DNA of 64,000 nt from an uncultured Ruegeria sp. (GTDB taxonomy: Bacteria; Pseudomonadota; Alphaproteobacteria; Rhodobacterales; Rhodobacteraceae), in the NCBI RefSeq assembly GCF_947504215.1, contig NZ_CANNGO010000001.1, positions 62,001 to 126,000 on the forward strand. Direction: 5' to 3'. Both the position numbers and the translations under genes were made by a program. The notes under the pieces are model-generated. The model searched no databases. It had not been told where the DNA came from and worked only from the letters and a program-made list of their open reading frames with translations. Every line of letters starts with the position of its first letter. Position 1 is the first letter of the stretch. Positions 12,225-56,544 of this stretch are shown in pieces.

Positions 12225-13094
12225 ATGGCCCGGTCGGAAAAAGGCTCTATCGAAAAGTATTACCGCAAAGGCGCGCCCAAAAGCGTGCGCGAAGAAATTA
12301 AAAAGGCCAGCAAGGGCGATATTCTGAACCCCACCTATCCCTACGCCGAAAAAATGAAATCCAGCGACTACCAAGAACAGATGGACACGCTGCAGATCGA
12401 GTTGGTCAAGATGCAGTCTTGGGTAAAGGAGACCGGTCAGAGGGTTGCCATTATCTTTGAAGGCCGTGACGCGGCGGGCAAAGGCGGAACCATTAAACGC
12501 TTTCGCGAAAACCTGAACCCACGCGGTGCCCGTAACGTCGCATTGTCCAAACCGTCGGACACAGAACGCAGCCAATGGTACTTTCAACGTTATATCCCGC
12601 ATTTGCCTGCGGCGGGGGAAATCGTGTTTTTTGATCGCAGTTGGTACAACAGAGGCGTTGTTGAAAACGTCTTTGGTTTTTGCACACCCAAAGAAAGAGA
12701 GCGGTTTTTCCGACAGGTTCTGCCGTTGGAGACAGGTTTGGCTAACGACGGCATTCATCTGTTCAAGTTTTGGCTGAACGTCGGGCGGGCCGAACAGTTG
12801 AACCGTTTTCTGGCACGCGAGACAGATCCGTTGAAACAATGGAAGTTGAGCCCGATTGATGTCGCGGGTCTGGACAAATGGGACGCGTATACGCAGTCCA
12901 TTTCTGAAACGCTGACACGATCTCATACCGACAGCTGTCCATGGACGATCATACGATCTGATGACAAGAAACGCGCCCGGCTTGCGGCGATCCGAACCGT
13001 ACTTCATACGCTTGATTACGAAGAGAAAAAGACCAAAGATCTCGGCGCAATTGATCCGAAAATCTGCGGCGGGCCGGAAATCTGGGACGCATAG
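12225..13094 (+). CDS. ppk2: polyphosphate kinase 2
   Basis: PPK2 enzymes move phosphate between polyphosphate and nucleotides (ADP or GDP to the triphosphate in the class-I type). The 289-residue single-domain protein shows Walker A in [10 protein letters not shown] (near residues 80-89), Walker B in FFDRSWYNR, and a downstream arginine-rich lid region before HLFKFWLN. Length and single domain fit class I, but class and nucleotide preference need assay. GAGGTAG lies before ATG 12225. It follows the hydrolase gene by 49 bases. It is relevant to the CHAD/CYTH operon at 52.8-55.6 kb, which I infer also deals with polyphosphate. Confidence 0.95.
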
Positions 13095-51460: not shown

Positions 51461-52823
51461 CCTACGGCTTTCCCTTAATAATTCGCGGACTCGTCTTGTT
51501 GCCGCCAGTATGGTTCTCAGCACCATTCTGACGGCAACAGTATTGGCTTTGGTCTATGTAACAGCCAATCGCAGCATTGAATCCGAAACACGATCGGTCG
51601 TGTCCGCAGAACTAACCGGGTTGGCTGATGAATACGAAAGGCGCGGGCTGATCGGCCTGATATCAGCCATCGAGCGGCGCTTGCCGAGCGCCTCGGAACG
51701 GGATGCATTGTATCTTTTGACGGACCGAAACGGCGTCAAACTTGTCGGAAACCTGAAGTACTGGCCCGCGGACATCACAGCTGGGAGTGGCTGGGTTGAT
51801 CTGGAACTGCGCCGCGCTGACAACGATCAACTGGTGCCTGTCTCTGCAGCCTCCATTCGGTTACCTGGTCGCGAGCGTTTACTTGTCGGGCGGGACGCCG
51901 TTGCGCGCCAGCAATTCGACCGGGTCTTGTTGCGCTCAGTTGTTTTGGCCCTGGGAATTGCGCTGGTTCTGAGTGTTTTGACAGGCTGGCTTTTTACCCG
52001 TCTGGTGTTCTCTCGGCTGTCCGACATCGCCAATACGGCCGACAATATCGTTTCGGGCGATCTATCCAGACGCATGCCGCTGCGCGGAACCGGAGATGAG
52101 TTCGATCAAGTCGCCGGGACACTGAACAACATGCTCGACCGGATCGAAGAGCTGGTCAGCAACCTGCGCACAACGTCCAACTCGATTGCCCATGATCTGC
52201 GGTCCCCGTTGTCCCGACTGCGGCAGAGGGTCGAGGCCTTGGCAGACCCCAGCAAAAGCGATCAGGAACGAGAGATCGATATCGCCCGTGCAACCGGCGA
52301 AATTGACCATGTTCTGAGGGTGTTGGGACAATTGACCGAAATATCGCGCGCCGAGGCTGGTCTGGGCCGAGAGCAGTTCGAAGAGGTGGATCTGCAACAG
52401 TTGGTCAGCGACGTGGTCGAACTTTATGAGCCCGTCGCGGCAGATCAGGGCATCCGGCTAGAAATCACCGGTCAGGCCGCCCCTATTCAGGGACATCGCC
52501 CACTGTTGTCACAGGCTTTGTCCAACCTGCTTGAAAACGCTATGCGTTATGCCCCGGAAGAAACAGTCGTCGCGATCTCGATTGCAGAGGATGGTGGTTT
52601 CACACGTCTGAGTGTCCGCGACCGAGGACCCGGTGTTCCGGCGGAAGATCTACCCCGGCTACAATTGCCTTTTGTGACGCTTGATCCGGCACGCACCGAA
52701 CGCAACGCGGGCCTGGGGCTGGCCCTGGTGGCGGCCATTTCTCACATGCATGGTGGTGGGTTCGTGGCGCGCAACTGTGAGCCCGGTCTTGAAACAACAC
52801 TCAATCTGGCGCATCGACCCTAG
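51453..52823 (+). CDS. HAMP-domain sensor histidine kinase
   Basis: The 456-residue kinase has two transmembrane helices (about 14-36 and 163-186) around a periplasmic sensor of some 125 residues, a HAMP linker, and the HisKA H-box SIAHDLRSPLSRLRQ. The HATPase domain has LSNLLENAMRYAP, DRGPGVP and NAGLGLALVAAI. Its eight-base overlap with the response regulator makes a coupled pair. The signal is unknown. Its stop overlaps the stop of the convergent CYTH gene by four bases. Confidence 0.95.
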   Translation: MANLRLSLNNSRTRLVAASMVLSTILTATVLALVYVTANRSIESETRSVVSAELTGLADEYERRGLIGLISAIERRLPSASERDALYLLTDRNGVKLVGNLKYWPADITAGSGWVDLELRRADNDQLVPVSAASIRLPGRERLLVGRDAVARQQFDRVLLRSVVLALGIALVLSVLTGWLFTRLVFSRLSDIANTADNIVSGDLSRRMPLRGTGDEFDQVAGTLNNMLDRIEELVSNLRTTSNSIAHDLRSPLSRLRQRVEALADPSKSDQEREIDIARATGEIDHVLRVLGQLTEISRAEAGLGREQFEEVDLQQLVSDVVELYEPVAADQGIRLEITGQAAPIQGHRPLLSQALSNLLENAMRYAPEETVVAISIAEDGGFTRLSVRDRGPGVPAEDLPRLQLPFVTLDPARTERNAGLGLALVAAISHMHGGGFVARNCEPGLETTLNLAHRP

Positions 52824-53287
52824 GTCGGCACACCCTCAATTGCCATAGTCTTGTTTTTGTAGCGTTTGTCTTCTGTCACATCCGCACCGAACCAGGTTGG
52901 TGGGATATATGACAGCGCCTCGGCTTCTGTGGCAAACTCAACTTCGACCAATCGCAAAGGTGCCAGATCGCCGGAAAACACGTCCAGTTCAAAAATGTGG
53001 CCGTCAGGCAAGTGTCCGGTATAGCGCTCTTTTTCGACCCGCCGCCCTTTGGTTTCAGGCCAGAATGTCTCGAATTGCTCGGCCGAGATTTCGGCTTCAC
53101 GCTCAACCCGCGCCAGGCTACCTCCGCCTTTGAGCGTCAGGAAATAGCTTTCATTTTTCTGGCGCAATCGCAGCTCGGTTGAATCGTCCGGTGACGTCAA
53201 ATACCCCTGACGCACCACTGCTTTTTGCGTCCCGCTCAGATCTGGCAGCTCTCCGACAAGAAACTTGCGTTCGATTTCCATACTCAT
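52820..53287 (-). CDS. CYTH-domain triphosphatase-like protein
   Basis: A 155-residue stand-alone CYTH tunnel protein. It keeps the ExExK signature MEIERKFLV (Glu4, Glu6, Lys8), the basic ELRLRQ strand, YFLTLKG and RVEREAEIS. These residues bind a triphosphate and metal in the inorganic triphosphatase/thiamine-triphosphatase group, so it is probably catalytic on tripolyphosphate or a similar substrate. It is the last gene of a three-gene operon; its ATG overlaps the ParA stop (ATGA). Its neighbours, a ParA ATPase and a CHAD protein, point to polyphosphate metabolism. cAMP formation is less likely. Confidence 0.9.
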   Translation of the reverse strand: MSMEIERKFLVGELPDLSGTQKAVVRQGYLTSPDDSTELRLRQKNESYFLTLKGGGSLARVEREAEISAEQFETFWPETKGRRVEKERYTGHLPDGHIFELDVFSGDLAPLRLVEVEFATEAEALSYIPPTWFGADVTEDKRYKNKTMAIEGVPT

Positions 53288-54039
53288 TTGGATGACACCA
53301 CTCCGTTTTCCAACTCGTCATACAACGCTTGATACGCAGCACTGGCCGGGCTGCGCCCGGCATAGGTACTGACCGGTGCGCGATGCTGCCCCATTTTTTC
53401 GATGTCTGCCGCGAATGGTACAGAGTTCTGCAGGAACCGCTTACTATACGCCGTGCGCATATTCTCCATTGTCTCGTGGTGCAGAGTCTTGCGCAGTTGC
53501 ACCATGGAAAAGAACGCTCGCAGCTTTTTCTTTCTCAGTTTGTTTTCGTCAAAAAAGCGTATCAGCTGATCGAATGTCCGCTCTGACAATGTCGTTGGGA
53601 TAACGGGCACAATGATCTCATCTGCCGCCTTGAAGATGTTCTCGGACAGGGTCGAAAAATTCGGAGGGCAGTCCAACACAATCACGTCATAGTCGCTGCC
53701 AGCCGACGTCAGGGCCTTTTTCAGGCGCGAGCGTTTGTTCCGCATTCGAGACAAAAACACATCGAAGTCGCGAAAGGTCAGGTTGGCGGGCAGCACGTCC
53801 AACCCTTCGAAGTCGCTGGCCCTAATGGCGTTCGTGAACCGTTTGACGTCTTCGAAAAAACGGGCTTCGGTCAGTTTTTTCGAGGGTTTGACCCTAAAAT
53901 AGAAGCTTGAGGCACCTTGCGGATCAAGATCGCACAGCAAGACCTGTTTGCCTGCCTGCGCATAGGCATGGGCCAAATTCACCGACGTCGCGGTTTTGCC
54001 GACGCCCCCTTTGTTGCTGTAGCAGGCAATGATCTTCAT
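53284..54039 (-). CDS. orphan ParA-type ATPase between CHAD and CYTH genes
   Basis: The 251-residue protein belongs to the ParA/MinD group. The deviant Walker A is SNKGGVGKT (signature Lys10, P-loop Lys15), the switch region is LCDLDPQGASSFYF, and Walker B is IVLDCPPNF. It has no N-terminal helix-turn-helix, and no parB or centromere-like repeats are near, so it is not a standard plasmid or chromosome partition ParA. It sits three bases after the CHAD gene and overlaps the CYTH gene. Orphan ParA proteins of this type position cytoplasmic cargo on the nucleoid, and the cargo here is inferred to be CHAD-bound polyphosphate. Confidence 0.9.
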   Translation of the reverse strand: MKIIACYSNKGGVGKTATSVNLAHAYAQAGKQVLLCDLDPQGASSFYFRVKPSKKLTEARFFEDVKRFTNAIRASDFEGLDVLPANLTFRDFDVFLSRMRNKRSRLKKALTSAGSDYDVIVLDCPPNFSTLSENIFKAADEIIVPVIPTTLSERTFDQLIRFFDENKLRKKKLRAFFSMVQLRKTLHHETMENMRTAYSKRFLQNSVPFAADIEKMGQHRAPVSTYAGRSPASAAYQALYDELENGVVSSK

Positions 54040-54042
54040 TCC

Positions 54043-55563
54043 TCACTCCTCTGTCTGATGAAACAAGCTGCGAAACAGATGTCGAATGTCCGGCCCATCG
54101 AATTGCTGAAAGCTAGACATAACCCGATCCCGCTCGGCTCGTTGGCGTTGATTCATCATGGCGATAAGGCCACCCACGGCCAGTCCGATCTGCGCATCAA
54201 CGCGACCTTGTGTCGTACTGTAACGGGAAACAAAACTCAGCAAAGCCGCTTGCTGTACTGAGAAGTCGTTAAACAGGCCAAGGTTATCCTGCAGCCTTTT
54301 CAATGGCTTGATGATGGTTTTGAAGTCTTTGGCGTGGAACAGTGGCGCAAAGAACTCCATCAGATATCGCAATTTCTTGCAGTCGATCCGAAGATCATGC
54401 ACCAGATCATCCGGTGTGTTTTCGCTGATGCTGCGCGCCAGTTTGCAGACCTTGCGATAGCGTTTCCAGATCAACGCGCAGGCGTATTCATAAGCCCCGC
54501 GCTGTGCATTTTTGCCCGGTTCCAATTGACTGGGGCCGTCAAATACTGCGTTCAGATCCTTCATTGTCTTGTCGTATGCGGCGCTTCGCAACCGCCGCTT
54601 CAAGCGAGTAAATTCCTGCCCGCGCTCTTCCTGAAATTGTTCAAACATTGCTTGCAATCCTGCATGAAGATTAGGCGGGATCAGTTTGAAATACATGTCT
54701 TTTTCTAAAAGATAGACATCGAGATCGCGCATGCGTCCCGTCGATGCCATGAGCTCTGAAAAGAGCTGCTTTAGTTCAACGGTCTGACTTTCAGAAAACA
54801 CCCCTTTGAACAGACTAATGACCGAGCGGATTTTCCGTAGCGAGACGCGGTAGTCATGCAGGAATTCGGTATCGGTGTCCGCGATCACGCCTTCTTCGTT
54901 TTGCCGTGCGACCGCCAAGTATGTACGGATGATATCGGCAGCGACCTCGATTGAGGGTTCGTTTTTGCCAAGATGAATATCGGGCTTGGCATGATAGGGG
55001 CGCATATCGGGAAAAAGCCCCTGATACACCGCTTCGAACCGTTTACCTTGTGCCACTTTCTCCGCCAGAACTGCACAGACCTTGGCAAACACCCGTTCGT
55101 ATCCGCGCAACTTTTCGATCCCGACAACGGTCACTTGGCCAACATCCGTCGACATCGACCAAACAGAACCGCGTACTTGTGTCTTTTGCAGATCATCCAG
55201 AATGGCCAACGAGTTGGTTTGGATTTCGCCCTGCCCAACTGCGATCAACGCCCGCAGAACCGGGAATCCTTTCAATGCACTGCTTACAGGACCAGCTGGC
55301 AGATCCTGGGCAAACTGGTCTTTAGCTTCGCAGTGTTGGATGAATGACTGCCCATCGCTTCGCAAAAGCTGCAACATCCCATCGCTCTGGATCAAAAACC
55401 GACCCTTGGCCCTTAGCGATTGATCATGACAGTCTAACAACGTGAAAGATCTTGGTGCGGAATTGGGTTCGATTTTGACCGAAAGATGTTCAGGCATCTG
55501 GTCGAGTGTTGTTTCATTAAACAGGAATGGCAGTACGAAAAACCCTGCATTTTTCATCTTCAT
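54043..55563 (-). CDS. CHAD-domain protein, first gene of the CHAD-ParA-CYTH operon
   Basis: The 506-residue protein carries a CHAD domain over about residues 205-490, a helical bundle rich in conserved His, Arg and Lys: FLHDYRVSLRKIRSVI and DLVHDLRIDCKKLRYLMEFF. CHAD domains bind polyphosphate, and some decorate polyphosphate granules. Residues about 25-195 look like a degenerate CYTH barrel (SLAILDDLQKTQVRGSVW, LRGYERVFAKV) with no ExExK motif. So this may be a CYTH-CHAD fusion whose catalytic half was lost and is supplied by the stand-alone CYTH gene downstream. GGAGAGG precedes ATG 55563. Confidence 0.88.
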   Translation of the reverse strand: MKMKNAGFFVLPFLFNETTLDQMPEHLSVKIEPNSAPRSFTLLDCHDQSLRAKGRFLIQSDGMLQLLRSDGQSFIQHCEAKDQFAQDLPAGPVSSALKGFPVLRALIAVGQGEIQTNSLAILDDLQKTQVRGSVWSMSTDVGQVTVVGIEKLRGYERVFAKVCAVLAEKVAQGKRFEAVYQGLFPDMRPYHAKPDIHLGKNEPSIEVAADIIRTYLAVARQNEEGVIADTDTEFLHDYRVSLRKIRSVISLFKGVFSESQTVELKQLFSELMASTGRMRDLDVYLLEKDMYFKLIPPNLHAGLQAMFEQFQEERGQEFTRLKRRLRSAAYDKTMKDLNAVFDGPSQLEPGKNAQRGAYEYACALIWKRYRKVCKLARSISENTPDDLVHDLRIDCKKLRYLMEFFAPLFHAKDFKTIIKPLKRLQDNLGLFNDFSVQQAALLSFVSRYSTTQGRVDAQIGLAVGGLIAMMNQRQRAERDRVMSSFQQFDGPDIRHLFRSLFHQTEE

Positions 55564-56121: not shown

Positions 56122-56544
56122 TTAGCCAACCAGTTCGATGCCCGAAAAGAAATAGGCGATCTCGACGGCCGCTGTTTCCGGTGCGTCCGACCCGTGAACC
56201 GAGTTTTCGCCAACAGATTCAGCGAATTCAGCGCGGATGGTGCCGGGCGCTGCGTCTGCGGGATTGGTTGCGCCCATGACTTCGCGGTTCTTTGCAATGG
56301 CGCCTTCGCCTTCCAGAACCTGAACAATGACCGGCTCGGACGACATGAATTCGCACAGTTCGTCGTAGAACGGACGCTCGGCATGCACGTCATAGAACTT
56401 GCCAGCCTGGGCTTTGGTCATGTGGATACGCTTTTGCGCGACGATGCGCAGACCTGCGTCTTCGAATTTGGCGTTGATCTTGCCTGTCAGGTTGCGGCGG
56501 GTTGCATCAGGTTTGATGATCGAAAATGTGCGTTCCAGTGCCAT
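56122..56544 (-). CDS. ndk: nucleoside diphosphate kinase
   Basis: Ndk balances nucleoside triphosphates by phospho-transfer through a histidine. The 140-residue protein has the opening [15 protein letters not shown] and the active-site His117 in [12 protein letters not shown]. Length is standard. AAGGAGAGG precedes the ATG. Monocistronic, with its own terminator. Confidence 0.97.

Follow-up and report, generated by a model that had tools for sequence, protein, structure and literature searches.

The stretch of DNA analysed here, referred to below as the window, comprises 64,000 nucleotides from an uncultured Ruegeria sp. (NCBI RefSeq assembly GCF_947504215.1, contig NZ_CANNGO010000001.1, positions 62,001 to 126,000 of the forward strand). 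Three co-directional genes on its minus strand form an operon encoding a CHAD protein, a ParA-family ATPase and a CYTH enzyme:

54043-55563, minus strand: CHAD gene; 506 amino acids, with a predicted N-terminal TTM/CYTH-like fold (about residues 6-170) and a long CHAD domain (about residues 204-501)
53284-54039, minus strand: ParA-family ATPase; 251 amino acids, deviant Walker A motif KGGVGKT, isoelectric point (pI) 9.57
52820-53287, minus strand: CYTH/TTM enzyme; 155 amino acids, ExExK motif intact, accessory member

Three nucleotides separate CHAD from ParA, and ParA and CYTH overlap by four; the three minus-strand genes with gaps of +3 and -4 given in a preliminary description of the locus were recovered as open reading frames (ORFs) at the same coordinates. 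Pfam searches identified CHAD (E 1e-60, residues 211-441), the ParA-type AAA_31 domain (E 2e-40) and CYTH (E 2e-9) in the respective products. The window ParA was 96% identical to the ParA of Ruegeria sp. EL01 and fell below the curated cut-offs of the 25 NCBIfam families listed, out of 36. The host genome (99.8% complete, 44 contigs) encodes one CHAD protein, three PPK2 and two Ppx-GppA. As had been described, the ParA is without a parB: the three ParB_N matches of the genome all lie on other contigs and none was found on the window's contig, so that the adjacent ParB of ParABS systems was not seen.

Conservation of the operon was assessed by a ParA-led scan of genome contigs, in which 132 loci held a relative; the best 80, 28 of them Ruegeria by label, were analysed and 52 were not returned. 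In all 80 of these best loci, the CHAD gene immediately preceded ParA in the same orientation, with a distance from CHAD stop to ParA start of -4 in 34 loci and +3 in 28. In 60 of the loci, ParA was followed by a CYTH gene on the same strand. The stretches fetched for the remaining 20, where CHAD and ParA were still paired, yielded none (tblastn, E 1e-4), and CYTH as an obligate part was ruled out on this count. The constant core is the CHAD-ParA pair; CYTH is accessory. The preliminary description had made conservation of the three-gene order outside close relatives its own test. This test was passed, since the gene order is kept far outside close relatives; what proved constant across several phyla was the pair, and not CYTH.

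When ORFs neighbouring 51 loci (L040-L090) were clustered, CHAD, ParA and CYTH formed the largest clusters and held fixed places. Other clusters covered at most 13 loci and were scattered (ABC ATPases, 11 loci) or resembled antisense shadows by position, and the genes flanking the operon in Ruegeria (DegP, two-component genes, MFS, Ndk) were down to 0-3 of the 51 loci. Judged from these locus counts, CHAD-ParA is more than a chance neighbourhood.

Isolates carrying the pair came from Alpha- and Gammaproteobacteria, Desulfobulbales and Kiritimatiellota, and included many Rhodobacterales. Those outside Rhodobacterales also covered Alteromonadales and Hyphomicrobiales; by name they included Pontiella sulfatireligans (Kiritimatiellota), Desulfopila sp. 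IMCC35006, Neiella spp. and Cohaesibacter marisflavi. The taxon labels of L065 and L088 (Alcaligenaceae) and L070 (Enemella) were considered doubtful because their ParAs nest among Rhodobacterales, and these loci were not counted as separate groups. Paracoccus aestuarii carries the order CHAD-ParA-CYTH-NUDIX on a 296-kb plasmid, where the NUDIX gene (L322:7253-7651) overlaps the end of CYTH. PPK1 was present in 4 of the 80 loci, divergent beside CHAD in three Desulfobulbales (L078, L086, L089) and downstream in Colwellia (L071); one of these four was checked by Pfam.

The pairing was also found from the CHAD side. When the window CHAD alone served as query, matches came from 31 of the 292 genomes of the order, host included. 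Of the 30 full-type loci retrieved, 27 had an intact ParA next to CHAD and 24 had a CYTH gene. This search was a cleaner CHAD-led test than the A2 profile, whose score gap is partly circular because the profile was built partly from genomes of a phylum draw in which it was later searched. ParA was missing at L211:2941-3180 and L215:2881-3180, in two Rhodobacterales genomes, where CHAD and CYTH both stay, spaced about 100 and 170 nucleotides apart, respectively.

Relatives of ParA also occurred away from CHAD. In the phylum draw (398 genomes), 70 genomes were ParA-bearing at E 1e-40 and a linked CHAD stood beside ParA in only seven of them, host included; in a class draw, ParA was found at E 1e-30 in 9 of 385 genomes, with CHAD adjoining in four. 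Unlinked ParA loci fetched from two draws numbered 68. These counts ruled out that ParA always occurs with CHAD; some links may have been missed because several contigs end near ParA. Unlinked ParA co-occurred strongly with any CHAD genome-wide (43/63 versus 74/328), a result given little weight because it is confounded by families with many members. In 24 of the 68 loci, the unlinked cousin had a gene for tRNA pseudouridine synthase nearby, and in 17 it had an RnfH-family gene, for example at L160:1498-2253 and L137:4316-4678 (one member of each cluster was checked by Pfam). Another, 37% identical, lay near the polyhydroxybutyrate synthesis gene phbB on the Marinobacter plasmid pMAQU02 (L324:673-5747).

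The phylum draw held 142 CHAD places, or 135 after subtraction of the seven linked ones, and 60 of these, hand-picked, were examined. A ParA match lay within about 5 kb in three and PPK1 in three, with one ParA adjacent (L265). A general ParA-CHAD tendency was ruled out by these counts, which indicate that the ParA link belongs to one CHAD type and not to CHAD generally. The adjacent case (L265:4932-7621) was a second ParA-CHAD pairing, in which an ordinary ExExK-type CYTH-CHAD gene is directly downstream of a different, short ParA and a presumably SixA-like gene. Among 28 loci of this short ParA type, CHAD was within 1.5 kb in one, namely L265 itself. A CHAD ORF intermediate between the linked type and other CHADs (L228:4946-6470 in genome G571, 298 bits) stood directly before a CYTH gene with no ParA between; the ParA of this genome was on another contig.

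The CHAD protein was modelled with AlphaFold2 at a mean predicted local distance difference test (pLDDT) of 90.5. Its nearest solved structure was CtCHAD (phmmer to 6qv7, E 3e-46), and in Foldseek its C-terminal part matched CtCHAD with bound polyphosphate (6qva) at TMt 0.93, in agreement with a CHAD fold. Passages of PMC6537752 report that mutation of CtCHAD His253, Arg256, Arg260, Arg296, Arg418 and Tyr419 reduced polyphosphate binding. The corresponding window residues, hand-mapped from the alignment (H236, R239, R243, R279, R399 and Y400), were all kept, and were conserved in 98-100 of 100 aligned rows, near-copies included. The CHAD protein is thus predicted to bind polyphosphate.

Foldseek also returned class IV adenylate cyclases, thiamine triphosphatases and TTM enzymes, all CHAD-free, at TMt 0.32-0.53 and E of about 1e-3 to 1e-2; the N-terminal part (about 170 residues, mostly strands) would account for these matches. 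Full-length ygiF (5a60) aligned over 510 columns at E 3e-8; its poor superposition (root-mean-square deviation 21, TM 0.27-0.31) would be explained by a different domain arrangement. The ExExK motif was absent from the first 80 residues of all 102 linked CHAD ORFs, some of which are near-copies or cut. By comparison, 70 of 72 CYTH ORFs carried it, as did 29 of the 39 other long CHAD proteins. This pattern suggests that the N-terminal part is a pseudo-TTM that has lost activity, and the fold probably serves as a binding or docking module.

The window ParA has the Walker motifs expected of its family, namely the deviant Walker A KGGVGKT with its signature lysine, Walker A' (DLDPQG) and Walker B (LDCPP), and residues K10, K15, D37, D39 and D123 were invariant in 20 of 20 aligned rows. 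The nearest solved structures by sequence were ParA 8ray, the ParA-like 4pfs and Soj; BcsQ and FleN were among the structural neighbours of the ParA model, which was of moderate quality (pLDDT 75.9). Unlinked cousins were as basic as the linked proteins (median pI 9.67 versus 9.61). By our own thresholds, linked ParAs were separated from their cousins at A43, Y47, R49, K55, I72, D76, S129, S132, T155 and S178, several of which sit in the loop after Walker A'. All 67 linked ParAs had Arg at position 49, against 7 of the 67 unlinked ones. This loop corresponds to region L23 of the Helicobacter pylori protein (HpParA), where passages of PMC11229316 place the binding of the ParB peptide, and may be where ParA meets CHAD.

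A ParA tree was built from 134 rows, 67 CHAD-linked and 67 unlinked, with Ruegeria thinned by hand. One clade of 60 rows was wholly CHAD-linked (SH-aLRT 97) and the other seven linked rows fell on deep branches among unlinked ones, where placement is unsure with the quick method used and the long branches. The linkage label required 5 changes, versus a mean of 45 in shuffles. On this tree, CHAD linkage may be ancestral with later separations, or may have arisen more than once. Distances between ParAs and between CHADs were correlated (r 0.92 in 60 loci and 0.57 in the 52 loci of the main clade, with 0 of 999 permutations as high), as is expected because the genes travel together; shared species history contributes too.

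The accessory CYTH was 61% identical to Nitrosomonas europaea chain 2fbl over 148 columns, similar enough to be grouped with NeuTTM, and its ExExK motif, which the preliminary description had called intact, reads EIERK. The PPK2 that the same description placed at 12.2 kb is an ORF with the corresponding family match:

12225-13094, plus strand: PPK2; one of three in the genome (PF03976 match G000:C1:74354-75034, E 7e-94)

This gene is not adjacent to the operon and is a possible source or user of polyphosphate. On another host contig, a Ppx-GppA gene is separated from a PPK2 gene by about 5 kb (G000:C6:67258-73808). Near the operon, an ORF at window 56122-56544, which resembles a nucleoside diphosphate kinase, belongs to a cluster found close to the module in 13 loci, 12 of them within L011-L039. 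The stretch upstream of the operon was inspected by eye for a Pho box, and nothing is claimed from it. PPK2 was present in 2-4 copies in 12 of 12 genomes tested, and passages of a published paper give three PPK genes for R. pomeroyi. No PPK1 match was found in the host genome, and a granule model therefore needs PPK2 as the source of polyphosphate in this host. Corynebacterium glutamicum forms polyphosphate with PPK2.

The gene pairing, its conservation, the predicted folds and the kept residues make CHAD-ParA a candidate machine, of the ParA cargo-system kind, for handling or spacing polyphosphate granules. A polyphosphate-handling ATPase pair is likely, and granule positioning is a plausible candidate role. 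That CHAD and ParA work as one ATP-driven unit on polyphosphate, by positioning or dispersal, is a proposition we hold to be evenly poised. In this model, the CHAD domain would bind polyphosphate chains or condensates, as suggested by the conserved contact residues and by the binding demonstrated for CtCHAD. ParA, probably an ATP-dependent dimer like related proteins, would recognise the CHAD protein, perhaps via the loop that follows Walker A' and holds the linked-specific Tyr47, Arg49 and Lys55. Cycles of ATP binding and hydrolysis by ParA would then space, disperse or segregate polyphosphate bodies on the nucleoid, much as McdA/McdB act on carboxysomes; this is the least certain step. CYTH, where present, would remove tripolyphosphate ends released from polyphosphate, a role suggested by its tripolyphosphatase relative. 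Passages of PMC6537752 describe CHAD proteins that sit on polyphosphate granules and relocation of the granules upon CHAD over-expression, and report no apparent phenotype after CHAD depletion in Ralstonia. A broader claim is held only tentatively and is rather to be doubted than expected: that CHAD-ParA would be the first ATP-driven system for positioning or segregation of polyphosphate bodies, mobile across phyla and able to use polyphosphate from PPK2 as well as from PPK1, in which a folded pseudo-enzyme serves as the adaptor and contacts ParA through a new interface (the Arg49 loop) in place of a basic tail.

Several observations weigh against granule positioning by CHAD-ParA. Of the 30 full-type CHAD loci, ParA was absent in two (L211 and L215) and broken in one (L208). 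Many ParA cousins are not beside CHAD, 20 of the 70 ParA-bearing genomes of the phylum draw had no CHAD match, and the nearest ParA was among the three nearest CHADs in only 37 of 60 loci. According to passages of PMC10241942, partners of ParA/MinD proteins usually have a positively charged, disordered N-terminus. No such basic, disordered N-terminus was found in linked CHAD. In the model of the window CHAD, residue 6 already begins the first strand and the pLDDT is below 50 at residues 1-3 only. Of 102 linked CHAD ORFs, 54 could be anchored, with starts chosen by a crude rule, and the mean net charge of their first 15 residues was 0.06. The loop with R49 was poorly predicted (pLDDT below 50 at residues 49-74). 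The DNA-contact lysines given for HpParA in passages of PMC11229316 (K199, K227, K230 and K247) fall on window H188, F209, D212 and R229 in a hand-mapped alignment, three of which are not basic. In the main clade, the place of K227 is Phe (98%), that of K230 mostly Asp (73%) and that of K199 variable; position 188, the place of K199, was basic in 7 of 8 deep linked rows and mostly basic in unlinked rows. The basic residues that serve non-specific DNA binding in ParA/MinD proteins were thus not found at the HpParA-equivalent window positions. DNA binding by the window ParA would still be possible because other conserved basic residues exist.

The distribution of PPK1 also went the wrong way. 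A positive association of PPK1 with the module was expected, and the opposite was found in Rhodobacterales. Of 48 genomes of the order, 28 had the module (intact ParA in 27, plus G744, where it is broken), and PPK1 was present in 10 of them. It was present in 17 of the 20 module-free genomes, which came first on a list of 261 that had no CHAD match. The Fisher p was 0.001 by genome, rising to 0.07 when the host genus was excluded and to 0.10 when genera were counted; the rarity of PPK1 with the module is weak once the host genus is left out because that genus mainly drives the contrast. Indeed, no PPK1 match was found in 15 of 15 tested genomes of the host genus (the host, G000, and 14 further). 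The preliminary interpretation, in which ParA spreads or segregates polyphosphate granules through the CHAD adaptor, was upheld in part. Conserved gene order, kept CHAD contact residues and the similarity of CYTH to 2fbl agree with it; the inconstancy of CYTH, the missing basic N-terminus of the partner, the absence of most HpParA DNA contacts and the host without a PPK1 match do not. The description contained neither the constant CHAD-ParA core nor the second, N-terminal domain of the CHAD protein, nor the missing PPK1 match.

An alternative is that ParA is a regulatory ATPase of the BcsQ/FleN kind: by docking on the CHAD/pseudo-TTM protein, it would act as a switch for polyphosphate turnover by CYTH or PPK2, with no positioning. 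This is possible, and we consider it unlikely. The absence of the usual DNA-contact and partner-tail features would fit such a switch, as would BcsQ and FleN among the structural neighbours, the CYTH gene that follows ParA in most loci, and the stimulation of the ygiF triphosphatase by a CHAD domain, described in passages of published work. However, the closest solved relatives by sequence include the ParA/Soj segregation ATPases, CHAD and ParA stay paired in the 20 loci where no CYTH was found, and the ParA is basic, with no MinD-like C-terminal extension seen by eye in the alignment.

The pair might instead position another phosphate-rich or anionic cargo, such as short PPK2-made polyphosphate or polyphosphate-nucleoid complexes, and not classical PPK1-made granules. 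The scarcity of PPK1 in module-bearing genomes and the multiple PPK2 copies in every genome tested speak for this explanation, but ten module-bearing genomes do have PPK1, three Desulfobulbales carry it beside the module, and the PPK1 contrast owes most of its strength to the host genus. We regard this explanation as improbable. Least credible by far is a plasmid-partition relic or orphan ParA that sits near CHAD without consequence for function. A Paracoccus plasmid does carry a copy of the module, ParA can be lost, and five further Paracoccus plasmid ParAs share 64-67% identity. This was rejected as the main explanation since the window's contig has no ParB_N match and the pairing persists across phyla in 80 of 80 loci, with correlated divergence and linked-specific residues. 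A phage origin was discarded, as a scan of viral contigs gave no relative.

The spacing and inheritance of polyphosphate granules in bacteria is an open question. In passages of a 2025 review (PMC13052382), AlgP is listed as the polyphosphate granule positioner, the proteins that position granules in Caulobacter are said not to be identified, and energy expenditure is said to remain to be seen. A survey of ParA/MinD cargos (PMC10241942) does not use the words polyphosphate or CHAD in its main text. Among the matches listed in our literature search, outside which subscription papers mostly fall, no paper proposed that ParA acts with CHAD, which is not proof that none exists. Since the pair is a conserved two-gene unit with a ParA ATPase, granule spacing is directly testable by single-gene deletion. 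If positioning by CHAD-ParA is true, a set of orphan ParAs would gain a cargo, and CHAD proteins a role in the cell.

Among known systems, CHAD-ParA resembles McdA/McdB as a two-gene unit of a ParA-type ATPase with intact Walker motifs and a putative cargo-binding partner, with no ParB. Unlike McdA/McdB, the partner here is folded, a pseudo-TTM-CHAD protein that lacks a basic disordered N-terminus, the predicted cargo is polyphosphate, and most HpParA-type DNA contacts are not kept in the window ParA. AlgP of Pseudomonas aeruginosa is similar in its proposed spacing of polyphosphate granules on the nucleoid (passages of PMC9239181 and PMC13052382), but by description it is a histone H1-like DNA-binding protein and not an ATPase. 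In Acidithiobacillus, passages of PMC10892726 report a highly conserved folD, ppk, parA and CHAD cluster, which by its description resembles the present pair in that parA is clustered with CHAD and PPK1. In these passages of what is a copper study, parA is mentioned in passing and no separate CYTH gene is listed. The preliminary statement that no described system joins the three parts holds insofar as no paper found joins all three, and must be qualified by this published parA-CHAD-ppk clustering. The CHAD phosins and CtCHAD (passages of PMC6537752) share the CHAD fold and the polyphosphate contact residues with the window protein, which differs in being tied to ParA and in having an N-terminal TTM fold without ExExK. 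Finally, the window CYTH resembles the NeuTTM tripolyphosphatase of N. europaea, characterised in passages of PMC3440374, in overall identity and in its kept ExExK; here, the putative tripolyphosphatase stands in a CHAD-ParA operon.

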